From: Burkholderiaceae bacterium
GTDB taxonomy: Bacteria > Pseudomonadota > Gammaproteobacteria > Burkholderiales > Burkholderiaceae_C
Length of the DNA: 64,000 nucleotides
Direction: 5' to 3'
NCBI GenBank assembly: GCA_004323695.1
Contig: SCRU01000059.1
Location: forward strand, 1 to 64,000
Under the pieces are notes generated by a model. The model made no database searches and had not been told where the DNA came from. It worked only from the letters and a program-made list of their open reading frames with translations. Of the stretch, positions 37,800-42,148 are shown in pieces. The position numbers and the translations under genes were made by a program. How positions within the stretch are numbered: the first letter of the stretch is position 1; every line of letters starts with the position of its first letter.

Positions 37800-37874
37800 G
37801 CAGATGTAGCTCAGTGGTAGAGCGGGACGTTGCCAACGTCCAGGCCGCGAGTCCGATCCTCGCCATCTGCTCCA
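37800..37874 (+). tRNA. tRNA-Gly(GCC)
   Basis: 75 nt with encoded CCA. Acceptor GCAGATG/CATCTGC, anticodon stem GGACG/CGTCC, loop TTGCCAA. First gene of the array. The next 170 bases contain no recognisable tRNA or gene. Confidence 0.93.
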
Positions 37875-38044
37875 TTTCGGGTGTGCCTACGCAACACCGC
37901 CGATCAAGCCTGGCTGATGGCTCGTCGGGATGTGCGTGCCTGAAGCCCGTGCAGCGAGATCTCCAGTGCGTTCGTGGGACTTGACCCTTGTGGTTTAGCG
38001 GGCGCTGCTCTCGCGTGTGGACACAACCGAAATGGACATTTTTT

Positions 38045-38121
38045 GCCCCGGTGGCGGAATTGGTAGACGCACTGGTCTTAGGTATCAGCAGCTGAGAGTT
38101 CGAGTCTCTCTTGGGGCACCA
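38045..38121 (+). tRNA. tRNA-Leu(TAG) with shortened variable region
   Basis: 77 nt with encoded CCA. The D-arm GTGGCGGAATTGGTAGACGC is typical of leucine tRNAs and the loop CTTAGGT gives TAG. Only five bases (CAGCT) separate the anticodon and T stems, where leucine tRNAs normally have a long arm of ten or more bases, so this is a class II tRNA reduced to class I size. Confidence 0.85.
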
Positions 38122-38140
38122 GCTTCATCGTGAATTCAAT

Positions 38141-38216
<76 letters not shown>

Positions 38217-38255
38217 CTCATTTAATTTGTGTCGTAATATCTACACGTCCTTTTC

Positions 38256-38332
38256 GCCCCTGTAACTCAATTGGCAGAGTAACTCCCCTGTAAGGAGTAG
38301 GTTGACCGTTCGAAGCGTGTCCGGGGGCACCA
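38256..38332 (+). tRNA. tRNA-Thr(TGT) with C33
   Basis: 77 nt with encoded CCA. Acceptor GCCCCTG/CGGGGGC, anticodon stem ACTCC/GGAGT and loop CCTGTAA, so position 33 is C rather than T. The T stem is poorly paired and the T loop seems expanded. It is clearly tRNA-derived but may be degenerate or unusual in function. Confidence 0.85.
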
Positions 38333-38343
38333 ATTTTTAGTTT

Positions 38344-38420
38344 GTCGCGTTCGTCTAGCGGCTCAGGACACGAGGTTTTCATCCTCGTAGACGCGGGTTC
38401 GAATCCCGGACGCGACTCCA
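38344..38420 (+). tRNA. tRNA-Glu(TTC)
   Basis: 77 nt with encoded CCA. Acceptor GTCGCGT/ACGCGAC, anticodon stem CGAGG/CCTCG, loop TTTTCAT. Looks canonical. Confidence 0.93.
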
Positions 38421-38431
38421 GTACAAGTTAG

Positions 38432-38507
38432 CGCAGGGAGTCTGTTGGTTGGCCGCGTGGTTTCATACGCCACTGCGACGCGAGTTCGATTCTCGCCCCT
38501 GCAACCA
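38432..38507 (+). tRNA. tRNA-Met(CAT), initiator-like acceptor
   Basis: 76 nt with encoded CCA. The acceptor CGCAGGG/CCCTGCA has a C1-A72 mismatch, the hallmark of bacterial initiator tRNA. The anticodon stem GTGGT/GCCAC lacks the three consecutive G-C pairs of initiators, and the D-arm pairs poorly. Loop TTCATAC. A second, regular Met tRNA lies at 41197. Confidence 0.8.
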
Positions 38508-38514
38508 AATTTTT

Positions 38515-38591
38515 TGGCCTTTAGCCAAGTGGTCTACGGCACCGGGTTTTGATCCCGGCATTCCAAGGTTCGAATCCTTGAAGGCCTGCCA
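38515..38591 (+). tRNA. tRNA-Gln(TTG)
   Basis: 77 nt with encoded CCA. Anticodon stem CCGGG/CCCGG, loop TTTTGAT. The first base pair is T1-T72, a weak end typical of glutamine tRNAs. Confidence 0.92.
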
Positions 38592-38596
38592 GTTTT

Positions 38597-38673
<77 letters not shown>

Positions 38674-38781
38674 ATATCAAAGAGACCCAAGCGGGACAGG
38701 GCGATTTCGATCGTTCTCCCGTGGAAACCGGACGCAAAGATTGGGCGTCGCCGGAACTCGTAACCGGACACTATATTTTCA

Positions 38782-38870
38782 GGAGCATTGGCCGAGAGGT
38801 CCAAGGCAATGGATTGCTAATCCATGGTCGCGCAAGCGGCCCGCTGGTTCGAATCCAGCATGCTCCGCCA
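38782..38870 (+). tRNA. tRNA-Ser(GCT)
   Basis: 89 nt with encoded CCA and a long variable arm (GGTCGCGCAAGCGGCC). Anticodon stem ATGGA/TCCAT, loop TTGCTAA. Canonical class II form. Confidence 0.93.
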
Positions 38871-38877
38871 TTTTTTT

Positions 38878-38954
38878 GGGGATGTAGCTCATTTGGGTAG
38901 AGCGGCCGCCCTGCAAGCGGCAGGTAGTCGGTTCGAAGCCGACCTTCTCCACCA
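38878..38954 (+). tRNA. tRNA-Ala(TGC) with C33
   Basis: 77 nt with encoded CCA. Anticodon stem GCCGC/GCGGC and loop CCTGCAA, so position 33 is C. The acceptor has a T-T mismatch at 6-67. The G3-U70-type pair of alanine identity is present as G3-T70. Confidence 0.88.
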
Positions 38955-38959
38955 GTTTT

Positions 38960-39036
38960 TCCCTTGTAGCTCAGTTTGGTAGAGCGCCGCACTGTTAATG
39001 CGGATGTCACATGTTCAAGTCATGTCTGGGGAGCCA
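38960..39036 (+). tRNA. tRNA-Asn(GTT)
   Basis: 77 nt with encoded CCA. Anticodon stem CCGCA/TGCGG, loop CTGTTAA. Looks like a normal asparagine tRNA, with T loop TTCAAGT. Confidence 0.92.
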
Positions 39037-39049
39037 GTTTTGAGGTTGT

Positions 39050-39127
39050 TGGGGCGTGGTGCGAGTGGTCCAAGCCGTTGCGTTCTGAGCGCAAATTTCG
39101 TCGGTTCGAATCCGACCGCCCTTACCA
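39050..39127 (+). tRNA. tRNA-Gln(CTG)
   Basis: 78 nt with encoded CCA. Anticodon stem TTGCG/CGCAA, loop TTCTGAG. The T1-T72 mismatch fits glutamine identity; the D-arm is one base longer than in the TTG isoacceptor. Confidence 0.88.
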
Positions 39128-39134
39128 AATTTTT

Positions 39135-39210
39135 GTTCCGCTAACTCAGTGGCCAGAGTGCCTCCCTGTCTAGGAGGAAGCCAGGGGTCCGACTCCCCTG
39201 CGGAACGCCA
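39135..39210 (+). tRNA. tRNA-Asp(GTC)
   Basis: 76 nt with encoded CCA and G discriminator. Acceptor GTTCCGC/GCGGAAC, anticodon stem CCTCC/GGAGG, loop CTGTCTA. The T loop reads TCCGACT instead of TTC. Confidence 0.9.
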
Positions 39211-39216
39211 GATCAT

Positions 39217-39292
39217 GCCGTGATAGCTCAGTTGGTAGAGCGCTGCGTTGAAGGCGCAGGCGTCGATGGTTCGAATCCATCTTGCGGCACCA
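39217..39292 (+). tRNA. tRNA-Phe(GAA)
   Basis: 76 nt with encoded CCA. Acceptor GCCGTGA/TTGCGGC, anticodon stem CTGCG/CGCAG, loop TTGAAGG. Canonical apart from G38. Confidence 0.93.
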
Positions 39293-39315
39293 GTTGTGCA
39301 ATCTTATGCGGTTAT

Positions 39316-39403
39316 GGAAGGTTGGGCGAGTGGCCAAAGCCGGCTGCCCTGAAAGCAGCAGTCCTTCGGGGCGCGCGAGTTCGAATCTACGCACCTTCCG
39401 CCA
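39316..39403 (+). tRNA. tRNA-Ser(TGA) with C33
   Basis: 88 nt with encoded CCA and a long variable arm (AGTCCTTCGGGGCG). Anticodon stem GCTGC/GCAGC and loop CCTGAAA give C33. The T stem has mismatches. Confidence 0.88.
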
Positions 39404-39410
39404 GATACAT

Positions 39411-39502
39411 GGAGAAGTGCCAGAGAGGCCAAATGGCGCACGTTGGAAACGTGATGGTCGCAGCGATGCGGCACAGGAGTTCGATTCTCCTCTTCTCCGC
39501 CA
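39411..39502 (+). tRNA. tRNA-Ser(GGA)
   Basis: 92 nt with encoded CCA and long variable arm. Acceptor GGAGAAG/CTTCTCC, anticodon stem CACG/CGTG plus one open pair, loop TTGGAAA. Confidence 0.92.
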
Positions 39503-39515
39503 ATAAATTGAACAT

Positions 39516-39605
39516 GGATGCGTGCCGGAGAGGCCTATCGGCGCTGTTTCGAAAACAGATGGTCGCGCAAGCGGCACGAGCGTTCGATTCGCTCCGCATC
39601 CGCCA
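39516..39605 (+). tRNA. tRNA-Ser(CGA)
   Basis: 90 nt with encoded CCA and long variable arm. Acceptor GGATGCG/CGCATCC, loop TTCGAAA. With GCT, TGA and GGA versions, the element covers all serine codons. Confidence 0.92.
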
Positions 39606-39626
39606 GTCATTCAATTCAATGAATTC

Positions 39627-39703
39627 CCCGCGTTGGCTCAACTGGATAGAGCATTTGCCTACGAAGCAAAAGTGTGCACGTTCGAATCGTGTGCGCGGGG
39701 CCA
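39627..39703 (+). tRNA. tRNA-Arg(ACG)
   Basis: 77 nt with encoded CCA. Acceptor CCCGCGT/GCGCGGG, anticodon stem TTTGC/GCAAA, loop CTACGAA. A34 would normally be edited to inosine. Confidence 0.93.
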
Positions 39704-39732
39704 AGTTTGAGACTGGAGCATAACCCTGCAAG

Positions 39733-39868
39733 GCTGCGCTCCAGGCGCCGGGAGTGTGTTGGTCAGCACTCCGTCCCAGCGCAGCGGTGAACGGGCTTGC
39801 AGGCCCTTGTATCCGCCAGCAGGGAGGGCAGCCACGGTTCGAATCCGTGACGGCTTGCTCAATTCAAT
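39733..39868 (+). other. tRNA-like relic or structured element in the array
   Basis: The 3' part holds a perfect T-arm (CACGG-TTCGAAT-CCGTG) but no normal acceptor or CCA follows. The 5' part forms a large hairpin with outer stem GCTGCGCT/AGCGCAGC (39733-39785) and inner GGAGTG/CACTCC. It could be a degenerate tRNA, an intron-bearing tRNA or another small RNA. Confidence 0.4.
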
Positions 39869-39872
39869 ACCA

Positions 39873-39961
39873 GGATCGTGAGAAGCACTGGCGACTTCAG
39901 GTGGCTGTAACCCACCCCTCCTTCGGGATACCACTTCGTTCGACTCGAAGACGATCCACCA
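39873..39961 (+). tRNA. tRNA-Tyr(GTA)
   Basis: 89 nt with encoded CCA. Acceptor GGATCGT/ACGATCC, anticodon stem GGTGG/CCACC, loop CTGTAAC, and the medium-long variable arm expected for bacterial tyrosine tRNA. Confidence 0.92.
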
Positions 39962-39968
39962 CTATTTT

Positions 39969-40042
39969 GCGGCCTTGGCCTATCGGTTGGGCTTCTGCCT
40001 TCCAAGCAGATGAGGCGAGTTCGATTCTCGCAGGCCGCTCCA
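39969..40042 (+). tRNA. tRNA-Gly(TCC)
   Basis: 74 nt with encoded CCA and T discriminator. Acceptor GCGGCCT/AGGCCGC, anticodon stem TCTGC/GCAGA, loop CTTCCAA with normal T33. Confidence 0.92.
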
Positions 40043-40060
40043 CATTTTATAGCATCAGAT

Positions 40061-40137
40061 GCCGCGTTAGCTCAGTGGACAGAGCCACCCCCTCCTAGCG
40101 GGTTAGGTCGGCGGTTCGAATCCGTCACGCGGCTCCA
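40061..40137 (+). tRNA. tRNA-Arg(CCT)
   Basis: 77 nt with encoded CCA. Acceptor GCCGCGT/ACGCGGC. The anticodon loop CTCCTAG gives CCT; the pair next to the loop is C31-C39, a mismatch. Confidence 0.88.
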
Positions 40138-40145
40138 ATTCATTT

Positions 40146-40233
40146 CAAGCAGTAGCCAAGAGGCCGAAGGCGATGGTCTGCAAAACCGTCGAGCGCATGC
40201 TCCGCGCGAGTTCGAATCTCGCCTGCTTGTCCA
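40146..40233 (+). tRNA. tRNA-Cys(GCA) with a long variable arm
   Basis: 88 nt with encoded CCA. Acceptor CAAGCAG/CTGCTTG is a perfect 7-bp stem, discriminator T73 and anticodon loop CTGCAAA (GCA) are cysteine identity elements. The variable region is 16 bases and forms GAGC-GCAT-GCTC, a class II arm like that of serine tRNA; the D-arm GCCAAGAGGCCGAAGGC is serine-like too. Bacterial tRNA-Cys is normally class I. Confidence 0.88.
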
Positions 40234-40239
40234 GATTTC

Positions 40240-40315
40240 GCCTCTTTAGTTCAGGGGATAGAACGGCGGATTTCTACATCGCGCGTCGGCGGTTCGAATC
40301 CGTCAAGAGGCTCCA
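40240..40315 (+). tRNA. tRNA-Arg(TCT)
   Basis: 76 nt with encoded CCA. Acceptor GCCTCTT/AAGAGGC, loop TTTCTAC; the pair beside the loop is A31-A39, a mismatch. Confidence 0.88.
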
Positions 40316-40402
40316 CACCAATGGCGTTTCGCTCACGCAAGAAATCGTCATCACCTTGTCGCGAATCAGCGCCAACATCAACTCAACTGAAAGGAGACCG
40401 CC

Positions 40403-40613
40403 ATGCGACTACGTGCCTATGATCGGCCCGCCCGCCCCATCACGCTGGCGGCCACCAAACCGCGCAACCCCGTCATCCAGGCCGCAATCAAGGGCTATGG
40501 CACGCTCTACGGGCAACGCCACGAGGACAAGCGCGCGCGCAGGCTGTCGTTGAACGTGAGCGATTCGAACGGCTCGACTACGACCAGCAGATCCGTGAGG
40601 TCGGCGAGTGGTA
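40403..40613 (+). pseudogene. Frameshifted small gene inside the tRNA array
   Basis: A strong AAAGGAG precedes ATG at 40403 and the N-terminal translation (MRLRAYDRPARPITLAATKP) looks real. After a CGCGCGC run near 40530 the same frame turns serine-rich and runs into tRNA-Ile, while the next frame continues naturally as VVERERFERLDYDQQIREVGEW and stops at 40613. I read this as one protein of about 70 residues split by a frameshift, by sequencing error or by slippage. Confidence 0.5.
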
Positions 40614-40675
40614 GAACTTTGCCAAGTTCAACACCAATCAGGCGCAGCTGCAGTGTGCACGGCGCCATCCAATCC

Positions 40676-40751
40676 AGCCCTTTAGCTCAGTCGGTAGAGC
40701 ACACGCTCGATAAGCGTGGGGTCGGCAATTCGAATTTGCCAAGGGCTACCA
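40676..40751 (+). tRNA. tRNA-Ile(GAT) with C33
   Basis: 76 nt with encoded CCA. Acceptor AGCCCTT/AAGGGCT, anticodon stem CACGC/GCGTG, loop TCGATAA, so position 33 is C and 32 is T where CTGATAA is usual. Confidence 0.9.
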
Positions 40752-40760
40752 GTTGATCGT

Positions 40761-40835
40761 GGTGCGCGTAGTTCAATGGTAGAGCAGCGGGTTGTGATCC
40801 CGCCCACATCGGTTCGATTCCGGTCGTGCACCCCA
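40761..40835 (+). tRNA. tRNA-His(GTG)
   Basis: 75 nt including the extra 5' G (G-1) that pairs with C73, the histidine identity element; CCA is encoded. Anticodon stem GCGGG/CCCGC, loop TTGTGAT. Confidence 0.93.
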
Positions 40836-40856
40836 ACCACAATAAATTACTGATAG

Positions 40857-41069
40857 GTACAGCGTGCGATTGATGAATTTGCACCAGCCTTGTACCCGTC
40901 TGGCAAGGTGTTGGCTCACAGGCTGCAGCAGCACGTCAACAGCATTGCCGACAAGAGCGCCGCGCGTTTCGTCGGCAATGCACCAGCCGATCCGTACGAA
41001 CTCAACAACCCACACCTGGACGATCTGCTGAACGAGCCCGTGCCAAGGCCCGCTTCGCCCACGGGCTGA
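40857..41069 (+). pseudogene. 5'-truncated coding remnant in the tRNA array
   Basis: A 70-codon open frame between two stops reads IDEFAPALYPSGKVLAHRLQ and then on to a TGA at 41069, with strongly GC-biased third positions, but has no usable start codon or ribosome site. It looks like the 3' end of a protein gene left behind when tRNA genes were inserted or rearranged. Confidence 0.45.
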
Positions 41070-41102
41070 CGCGACGCACAAGATCGCGCCCCAATACTTT
41101 TT

Positions 41103-41190
41103 CTCTCCGTGGCGGAATCGGTAGACGCGCCAGACTCAAACCCTGGAGTTCGCGAGAACATTGTCCGTTCGAATCGGACTGGAGAGACCA
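41103..41190 (+). tRNA. tRNA-Leu(CAA)
   Basis: 88 nt with encoded CCA and a proper long variable arm (GAGTTCGCGAGAACATT). D-arm GTGGCGGAATCGGTAGACGC is leucine type; loop CTCAAAC. The pair next to the loop is an A-C mismatch. Confidence 0.9.
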
Positions 41191-41196
41191 CTAATT

Positions 41197-41273
41197 CGTC
41201 GTGTAGCTTAGTTGGTTTGAGCGCTCGCCTCATAAGCGAGAGGACGGTGGTTCGATACCACCCACGACGACCA
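41197..41273 (+). tRNA. tRNA-Met(CAT), elongator type
   Basis: 77 nt with encoded CCA. Acceptor CGTCGTG/CACGACG fully paired, anticodon stem CTCGC/GCGAG, loop CTCATAA. A lysidine-modified tRNA-Ile2 cannot be excluded from sequence alone. Confidence 0.9.
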
Positions 41274-41278
41274 TTTCT

Positions 41279-41354
41279 GCGCGTGTAGCTCAGCGGCGAG
41301 AGCATCCGACTTTTAATCGGAGGGTCGAGATTTCGAATATCTCCGCGCGCACCA
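41279..41354 (+). tRNA. tRNA-Lys(TTT)
   Basis: 76 nt with encoded CCA. Acceptor GCGCGTG/CGCGCGC, anticodon stem TCCGA/TCGGA, loop CTTTTAA. Confidence 0.93.
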
Positions 41355-41368
41355 CTTCCAAATTTCCC

Positions 41369-41444
41369 TGGTCGTTAGCTCAGCCGGTAGAGCGCTTTCC
41401 CTACAAGAAAGATGTCGGCGGTTCGAACCCGTCACGACCAACCA
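41369..41444 (+). tRNA. tRNA-Val(TAC) with C33
   Basis: 76 nt with encoded CCA. Acceptor TGGTCGT/ACGACCA, anticodon stem CTTTC/GAAAG, loop CCTACAA, so position 33 is C. Otherwise well formed. Confidence 0.9.
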
Positions 41445-41471
41445 TTCGCTCGCACTCGAGGCGCAAAACAA

Positions 41472-41549
41472 GCGACCGAAGCTCAGCCCGGATTGAGCGC
41501 TGCCCTCCGAAGGCAGAGGCCAGAGGTTCAAATCCTCTCGGTCGCACCA
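41472..41549 (+). tRNA. tRNA-Arg(CCG)
   Basis: 78 nt with encoded CCA. Acceptor GCGACCG/CGGTCGC, anticodon stem CTGCC/GGCAG, loop CTCCGAA, T loop TTCAAAT. Last gene of the array, 36 bases before the HNH gene. Confidence 0.93.
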
Positions 41550-41584: not shown

Positions 41585-42148
41585 ATGAACCCCCAAGTTC
41601 TGCAACTCGACATCCAGGGAACGCCGCAGGCCTGGATCTCGGTCGAGCAGGCTGTATCGCATTACGCCACCGGTTCCGTCGCCTGGGAAGACGGCTCGGG
41701 CCCGCTGGTGACCATGCGTGGGGGATTCAACGTGGCCCGCGGCGTTCAGTCGCGCATCGACGTCTCGCCGATCATCGCGCTGCACGGCTGCGCCAGGCTC
41801 AACCTGTTCGACGTTACACCGTCGTTCAGCAAGGCCAAGCTGCTGCGCCGTGACCGCTTCACCTGTGCGTACTGTGCGCAGCAGTTTCGTGAGCAGGATC
41901 TGACGTGTGAGCACATCCTGCCGGAGTCGCGCGGCGGCCTGTGGGTTTGGACGAACCTTGTGGCGGCATGCCGCGAGTGCAATCACGTAAAGGGAGCACG
42001 CACGCCAGAAGAAGCCGGCATGCCTCTGGTGTACCTGCCCTACGTGCCAAGCCGTTGGGAGGACTTCCTGCTCGAAGGCAGGAACATCCGCGCCGACGTA
42101 CACGACTGGCTGGCAAGCCGGCTGCCGAAAGGCTCCAGACTAAACTGA
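41585..42148 (+). CDS. HNH endonuclease
   Basis: The 187-residue protein has CAYCAQQF, then CEHILPESRGGLWVWTNLVAACRECNHVKGART, the zinc-supported HNH nuclease core (two CxxC pairs, His in EHI, Asn in WTNLV, His in NHVK). AAAGGAGG lies six bases before the ATG. It directly follows the last tRNA and precedes a terminator, so it is probably the final cistron of the array transcript; free-standing HNH enzymes of this type help homing or defend phage and plasmid genomes. Confidence 0.9.
   Translation: MNPQVLQLDIQGTPQAWISVEQAVSHYATGSVAWEDGSGPLVTMRGGFNVARGVQSRIDVSPIIALHGCARLNLFDVTPSFSKAKLLRRDRFTCAYCAQQFREQDLTCEHILPESRGGLWVWTNLVAACRECNHVKGARTPEEAGMPLVYLPYVPSRWEDFLLEGRNIRADVHDWLASRLPKGSRLN

Follow-up and report, generated by a model that had tools for sequence, protein, structure and literature searches.

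Which amino acid does a bacterial tRNA carry if its anticodon reads cysteine codons while its variable arm has the length expected of another tRNA class? Long variable arms in bacteria normally occur in the tRNAs for leucine, serine, tyrosine and selenocysteine only, and the arm class is usually treated as fixed for each amino acid. The window analysed here, a stretch of 64,000 nucleotides from a Burkholderiaceae bacterium (contig SCRU01000059.1), contains a tRNA gene with a GCA anticodon and a long arm. A sequence-only reading had assigned cysteine identity marks (GCA anticodon and T73), a 16-base variable arm and a serine-like D-arm to this gene, and had suggested that its product might be charged with serine, with cysteine or with both.

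The gene is confirmed as a real, intact tRNA(GCA) with a long variable arm (Table 1). ARAGORN calls tRNA-Cys(GCA) at exactly the limits given there, and the Rfam model RF00005 scores the same segment at 51.9 bits (E 3e-8). The cloverleaf is complete, with an encoded 3' CCA, and direct reading shows full pairing of the acceptor stem (CAAGCAG/CTGCTTG, 7/7), the anticodon stem (ATGGT/ACCGT, 5/5) and the T-stem (GCGAG/CTCGC, 5/5), the first base pairs being C1-G72 and A2-U71. The variable region, CGAGCGCATGCTCCGC, is composed of C44, the hairpin GAGC-GCAT-GCTC with its 4-bp stem, and CGC, and it cannot be read as an ordinary variable loop of 4-5 nt. The proposed arm and both cysteine marks are borne out. 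The serine-like D-arm holds in one part, as the 3' part of the D-loop (GGYCGAAGGC) resembles tRNASer, but fails in another, since U8-A9 and A13 have the tRNACys form. The minimum free energy structure from RNAfold contains the variable hairpin, and its energy z-score of -1.6 is unremarkable alone, such single-sequence z-scores being uninformative.

Table 1. Features of the tRNA gene and of the surrounding array (window positions)
Feature	Position	Strand	Remarks
Class II tRNA-Cys(GCA) gene	40146..40233	+	88 nt including encoded CCA; ARAGORN, Rfam RF00005, homologues
Positions 8-26 with D-arm TAGCCAAGAGGCCGAAGGCG	40153..40172	+	Cys-type A9/A13; long D-loop of Ser-like length
Anticodon loop CTGCAAA	40178..40184	+	Anticodon GCA at 40180-40182
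16-nt variable region	40190..40205	+	V-stem 40191-40194 with 40199-40202, loop GCAT; CGC (3 nt) before the T-stem
Discriminator U73	40230..40230	+	Direct reading; U73 in 24/24 class II tRNA-Cys
Mobile tRNA array	37800..41549	+	29 ARAGORN genes and one Rfam-only match at 38256-38329
HNH endonuclease gene (PF14279/PF01844)	41585..42148	+	At the array end

The variable arm is also retained among relatives. In an alignment of 17 homologues of the long-armed tRNA-Cys all five helices covary, with 94.4% of cells paired (64% in shuffles) and 114 two-sided changes (32 in shuffles; slid controls far lower). Such changes were observed in 20/24 pairs, and in the V-stem they affect 4/4 pairs, the innermost of which is formed in only some sequences. 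The stem of the variable arm is kept by compensatory changes, and a chance hairpin is excluded because its pairs covary over the 17 homologues. Three other readings of the gene were rejected: a misaligned class I tRNA, as 16 nt sit between fully paired stems; a pseudogene, as every stem is intact and covarying; and tRNASec or selC*, as the acceptor and T lengths are wrong.

Related tRNA clusters of plasmids, chromosomes and phages also contain the long-armed tRNA-Cys. A search pattern composed of a Cys-type D-arm, a long D-loop and the GCA loop matched 17 of the 401 genomes sampled from the window's family (9/141 genera; two of the 17 with intermediate arms) as well as 11 viral contigs, and the reversed pattern gave no match in the 401 family genomes. 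The long-armed form lies in 10 uncultivated phage contigs. Nearly all matches are tRNA-Cys inside tRNA clusters with variable regions of 14-20 nt, the exceptions being L082 (5 nt), L085 and L086 (8-9 nt), and L093 and L097, whose 3' ends are apparently altered. The intermediates with 5, 8 and 9 nt have the same D-loop as the long-armed forms. For instance, the megaplasmid arrays of Variovorax, Polaromonas and Methylibium have a layout common to all, and most of them possess an 87-nt tRNA-Cys of the same long-armed form. The rarity claimed for class II tRNA-Cys agrees with a sample of 399 genomes across the phylum, where the sole true match was the window's own genome; the other match, which is the one outside the family (L105), is not a tRNA. 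A looser pattern (TGCAR ... TCCA) was dropped after a run on 300 genomes, as it returned mostly chance matches and class I tRNA-Cys read from the D-arm. A BLAST search of phages and plasmids with class II tRNA-Cys sequences joined together gave no hit at E 1e-4, probably because the tRNAs diverge too far for BLAST.

Both marks of a mobile tRNA array are found around the gene, namely a dense cluster of tRNAs for most amino acids (29 in 3.75 kb according to ARAGORN, about 30 in total with the Rfam-only match) and an HNH endonuclease gene (Pfam PF14279) beside it. The Rfam-only match (44.4 bits), missed by ARAGORN, is a putative tRNA-like gene. In 16/17 genomes with the class II tRNA-Cys, the HNH gene is at most about 4.5 kb away from that tRNA. 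HNH relatives without an adjoining tRNA array are numerous in alphaproteobacteria, Bacteroidota and some actinobacteria, and a scan of the viral contigs for the HNH protein yielded no relative. Another contig (G000:C47:49740-50285) encodes a further HNH relative with about 52% identity, and such a second copy is present in most array-bearing genomes. The contig with the array is 235.3 kb long, and we infer that it is a large plasmid or similar element because the window encodes ParB-like, DnaG-like, RecD2-like, gyrase B-like, UmuC-like, HipA-like and Zeta-toxin-like proteins. Elsewhere the genome has a class I tRNA-Cys of the ordinary kind, and it has one clear full-length CysRS match and one SerRS, neither synthetase being on the array contig. 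A simple scan for a sigma-70-like promoter found none. Genes with a possible role in tRNA repair lie within other arrays, one for an RNA ligase family protein in Variovorax RA8 (L002 4070-5131) and two for HD-domain and AlkB proteins in Methylibium (L005 3465-4010 and 4269-4817).

A different long-armed tRNA(GCA) is present in plasmid arrays of Pseudarthrobacter and Paenarthrobacter (Micrococcaceae). Its D-arm is of the leucine type, its variable hairpin reads GCC-TTCG-GGC, and it has U73. This body, together with an Arthrobacter relative that has a short, class I variable loop, points to more than one origin of long-armed tRNA-Cys. A search of viral contigs for the leucine-bodied form gave no tRNA-Cys of that kind. 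Unusual arms are also seen in other isotypes. The window array itself includes a tRNA-Leu(UAG) with a class I-like variable loop of 5 nt (38045-38121), and among the loci examined 12/52 distinct array tRNA-Leu, from Burkholderiales, cyanobacterial, mycobacterial and phage arrays, have variable regions of at most 6 nt. Class II-like variable regions occur in arrays and phages with Asp, Thr, Gly, Lys and Pro anticodons (L072 11530 and L081 8575; L076 7306; L074 6213; L008 2186; L030 2723), the form with the Asp anticodon having a Leu-like body and G73. Moreover, in eight viral loci (L116, L117, L120, L121, L123, L126, L129 and L133) a 5' half resembling that of tRNA-Leu (GGTGGCGGAATTGGTAGACGC) is repeated, and after it comes a conserved stretch that is not called as tRNA; these repeats could be split, intron-bearing or tRNA-like elements.

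We consider it probable that the window gene encodes a cysteine tRNA, still charged with cysteine, to which a variable arm was added within a backup tRNA set that is inducible or serves against nucleases. Such a tRNA would read UGU/UGC, and the host's single CysRS would most likely recognise it by the GCA anticodon and U73. Comparison with its relatives shows that, in the window lineage, the D-loop of a tRNA-Cys body was lengthened and a variable arm of 3-5 bp was added, the outcome being a class II tRNA-Cys with the ordinary 7/5 acceptor/T configuration. The arm would not make it a serine tRNA, because arm geometry and acceptor stem are not of the serine type. It seems to belong to a horizontally moving backup set made up of the tRNA array and the HNH endonuclease gene, and these sets are thought to be induced by translation stress or to substitute for host tRNAs cut by tRNA-cutting defences. 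The Anabaena array, for instance, is silent until translational stress induces its expression, and aids survival (PMC10272220), and tRNAs encoded by phages can offset the action of tRNA-degrading defences (PMC11555353). A changed body that is tolerated by CysRS yet maybe unseen by tRNA-targeting enzymes would suit the backup role, and the arm may protect against nucleases.

The suggested serine charging, by SerRS alone or by both enzymes, would place serine at cysteine codons whenever the array is expressed, and it draws on the fact that recognition by SerRS depends chiefly on the variable arm and takes no account of the anticodon (PMC9976931), as well as on the tRNASer-like D-loop GGYCGAAGG. 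However, a comparison of 24 distinct long-armed tRNA-Cys with 42 array tRNASer points elsewhere. U73 is invariant in the former (24/24), whereas G73 dominates in the latter (34/42), although U73 also occurs there (8/42); A9/A13 characterise 22/24 class II tRNA-Cys and G9/G13 37/42 array tRNASer. G1-C72 and G2-C71, absolutely conserved in the tRNASer of E. coli and most bacteria (PMC9976931), are found in 41/42 array tRNASer but in 2/24 long-armed forms, and the window tRNA has neither. The long-armed forms have V-stems of 3-5 bp, most commonly with 1 nt before and 3 nt after, a geometry that matches array tRNATyr; in array tRNASer the stem is mostly 6-7 bp with 1-2 nt after, and in the window tRNA it is 4 bp with 3 unpaired nt on the 3' side. 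The tRNA alignment has too few columns for a tree to resolve origins, and only nearest-neighbour distances were used. By these, the body comes nearest to class I tRNA-Cys: for 19/23 long-armed forms the nearest relative outside the group is a class I or intermediate tRNA-Cys. U73 and GCA are major cysteine determinants, and U73 by itself suffices for minihelices (PMC9976931). The pair G15-G48, a strong CysRS determinant in E. coli, is present in the host's own tRNA-Cys, whereas the long-armed forms have C48 (24/24); it is not a general requirement of tRNA-Cys, because it is conserved in few bacterial species only (PMC9976931). The first pair is A1-U72 in some homologues (L001, L012 and L014); in selC* tRNA, standard CysRS is believed not to accept this pair (PMC7609411). 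Doubt over cysteine charging comes from C48, from the A1-U72 pair of some copies and from the 8/42 array tRNASer with U73; given the last of these, serine misincorporation at cysteine codons is conceivable but not favoured, and serine or dual charging appears quite improbable. As a separate observation, some array tRNASer have U73 directly before an encoded CCA, which is unusual for a serine tRNA, namely those of L001 (GGA), L002 (UGA and GGA) and L030 (UGA).

Two more explanations concern what the array tRNAs are for. They might be poor translation substrates that serve mainly as decoys occupying tRNA-cutting toxins or defence nucleases, with the reshaped body reflecting that selection for aminoacylation was lost; C48 and the occasional A1-U72 deviate from preferred CysRS features, and the arm changes in array tRNAs for leucine, Asp, Thr, Gly, Lys and Pro would fit. 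Yet the stems, T-loop, anticodon loop and U73 are all clearly constrained, unlike in a mere substrate mimic, and rescue from retron-Eco7 by phage tRNAs needs working tRNA function, as stem-loop and anticodon mutants fail (PMC11555353), and we therefore hold a decoy role to be unlikely. Neutral drift, in which redundant array tRNAs tolerate arm insertions because CysRS ignores the loop and the arm has no role, could explain why class I, 8-9 nt and long forms stand side by side in close relatives, but is very unlikely in view of the compensatory changes that maintain the V-stem and the predominance of long forms among array tRNA-Cys with the same D-arm.

Beyond the cysteine tRNA that gained an arm, a broader and rather doubtful idea is that mobile tRNA arrays systematically swap the variable-arm class, keeping anticodon and discriminator, and thereby retain host aminoacylation while evading those tRNA nucleases, of the host or of toxins, that identify a tRNA by its body. 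If true, long-armed Cys on at least two bodies and short-armed Leu would be parts of one nuclease-escape pattern. tRNA-Cys appears to cross the arm-class line on at least two bodies, and because close class I and intermediate relatives exist, the change from class I to class II is open to study as a natural series. The long-armed forms could also serve as test molecules for SerRS rejection, CysRS tolerance and the survival of array tRNAs under tRNA-cutting defences.

Long-armed tRNA-Cys is already known in the selC* form, whose original study is reportedly that of Mukai et al. in 2017. The selC* tRNA-Cys shares with the window tRNA the GCA (sometimes UCA) anticodon, U73, the long variable arm and cysteine identity, and shows that a CysRS variant can charge such a molecule (PMC7609411). 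However, the selC* branch has an 8/4 acceptor/T configuration with a bulge and tRNASec-like stems, and its genes lie near selB*/cysS* in some hosts, whereas the window tRNA is 7/5 without a bulge and sits inside a tRNA array without its own CysRS. The 7/5 form in mobile tRNA arrays is an apparent addition, as no description was found in the literature searched, which was mostly non-subscription, and an earlier report is possible.

The array resembles those of Anabaena (trn operon; PMC10272220) and Mycobacterium (PMC5966550, PMC12803027) in its dozens of redundant, diverged tRNA genes on plasmids or mobile elements, and an HNH endonuclease gene near the array is common to the window, Mycobacterium and Nostoc; unlike here, tRNA-Cys is class I in those Nostoc and Mycobacterium arrays that were examined. 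The Mycobacterium arrays, with their conserved HNH gene and duplicated chromosomal anticodons, are a putative antidefense system, and their tRNAs typically depart from the chromosomal ones in the anticodon domain, variable arm included (PMC12803027). Phage tRNA clusters likewise provide tRNAs able to replace those of the host, and related class II tRNA-Cys occur in viral contigs, but the window tRNA, unlike the phage tRNAs (PMC11555353), is not known to have a defence target. With bacterial tRNASer and tRNATyr, finally, the long-armed tRNA-Cys shares the long variable arm, the 3' part of the D-loop being as in tRNASer and the arm geometry as in tRNATyr, and it is set apart from both by U73 with GCA, by A9/A13 and, mostly, by the lack of G1-C72/G2-C71.
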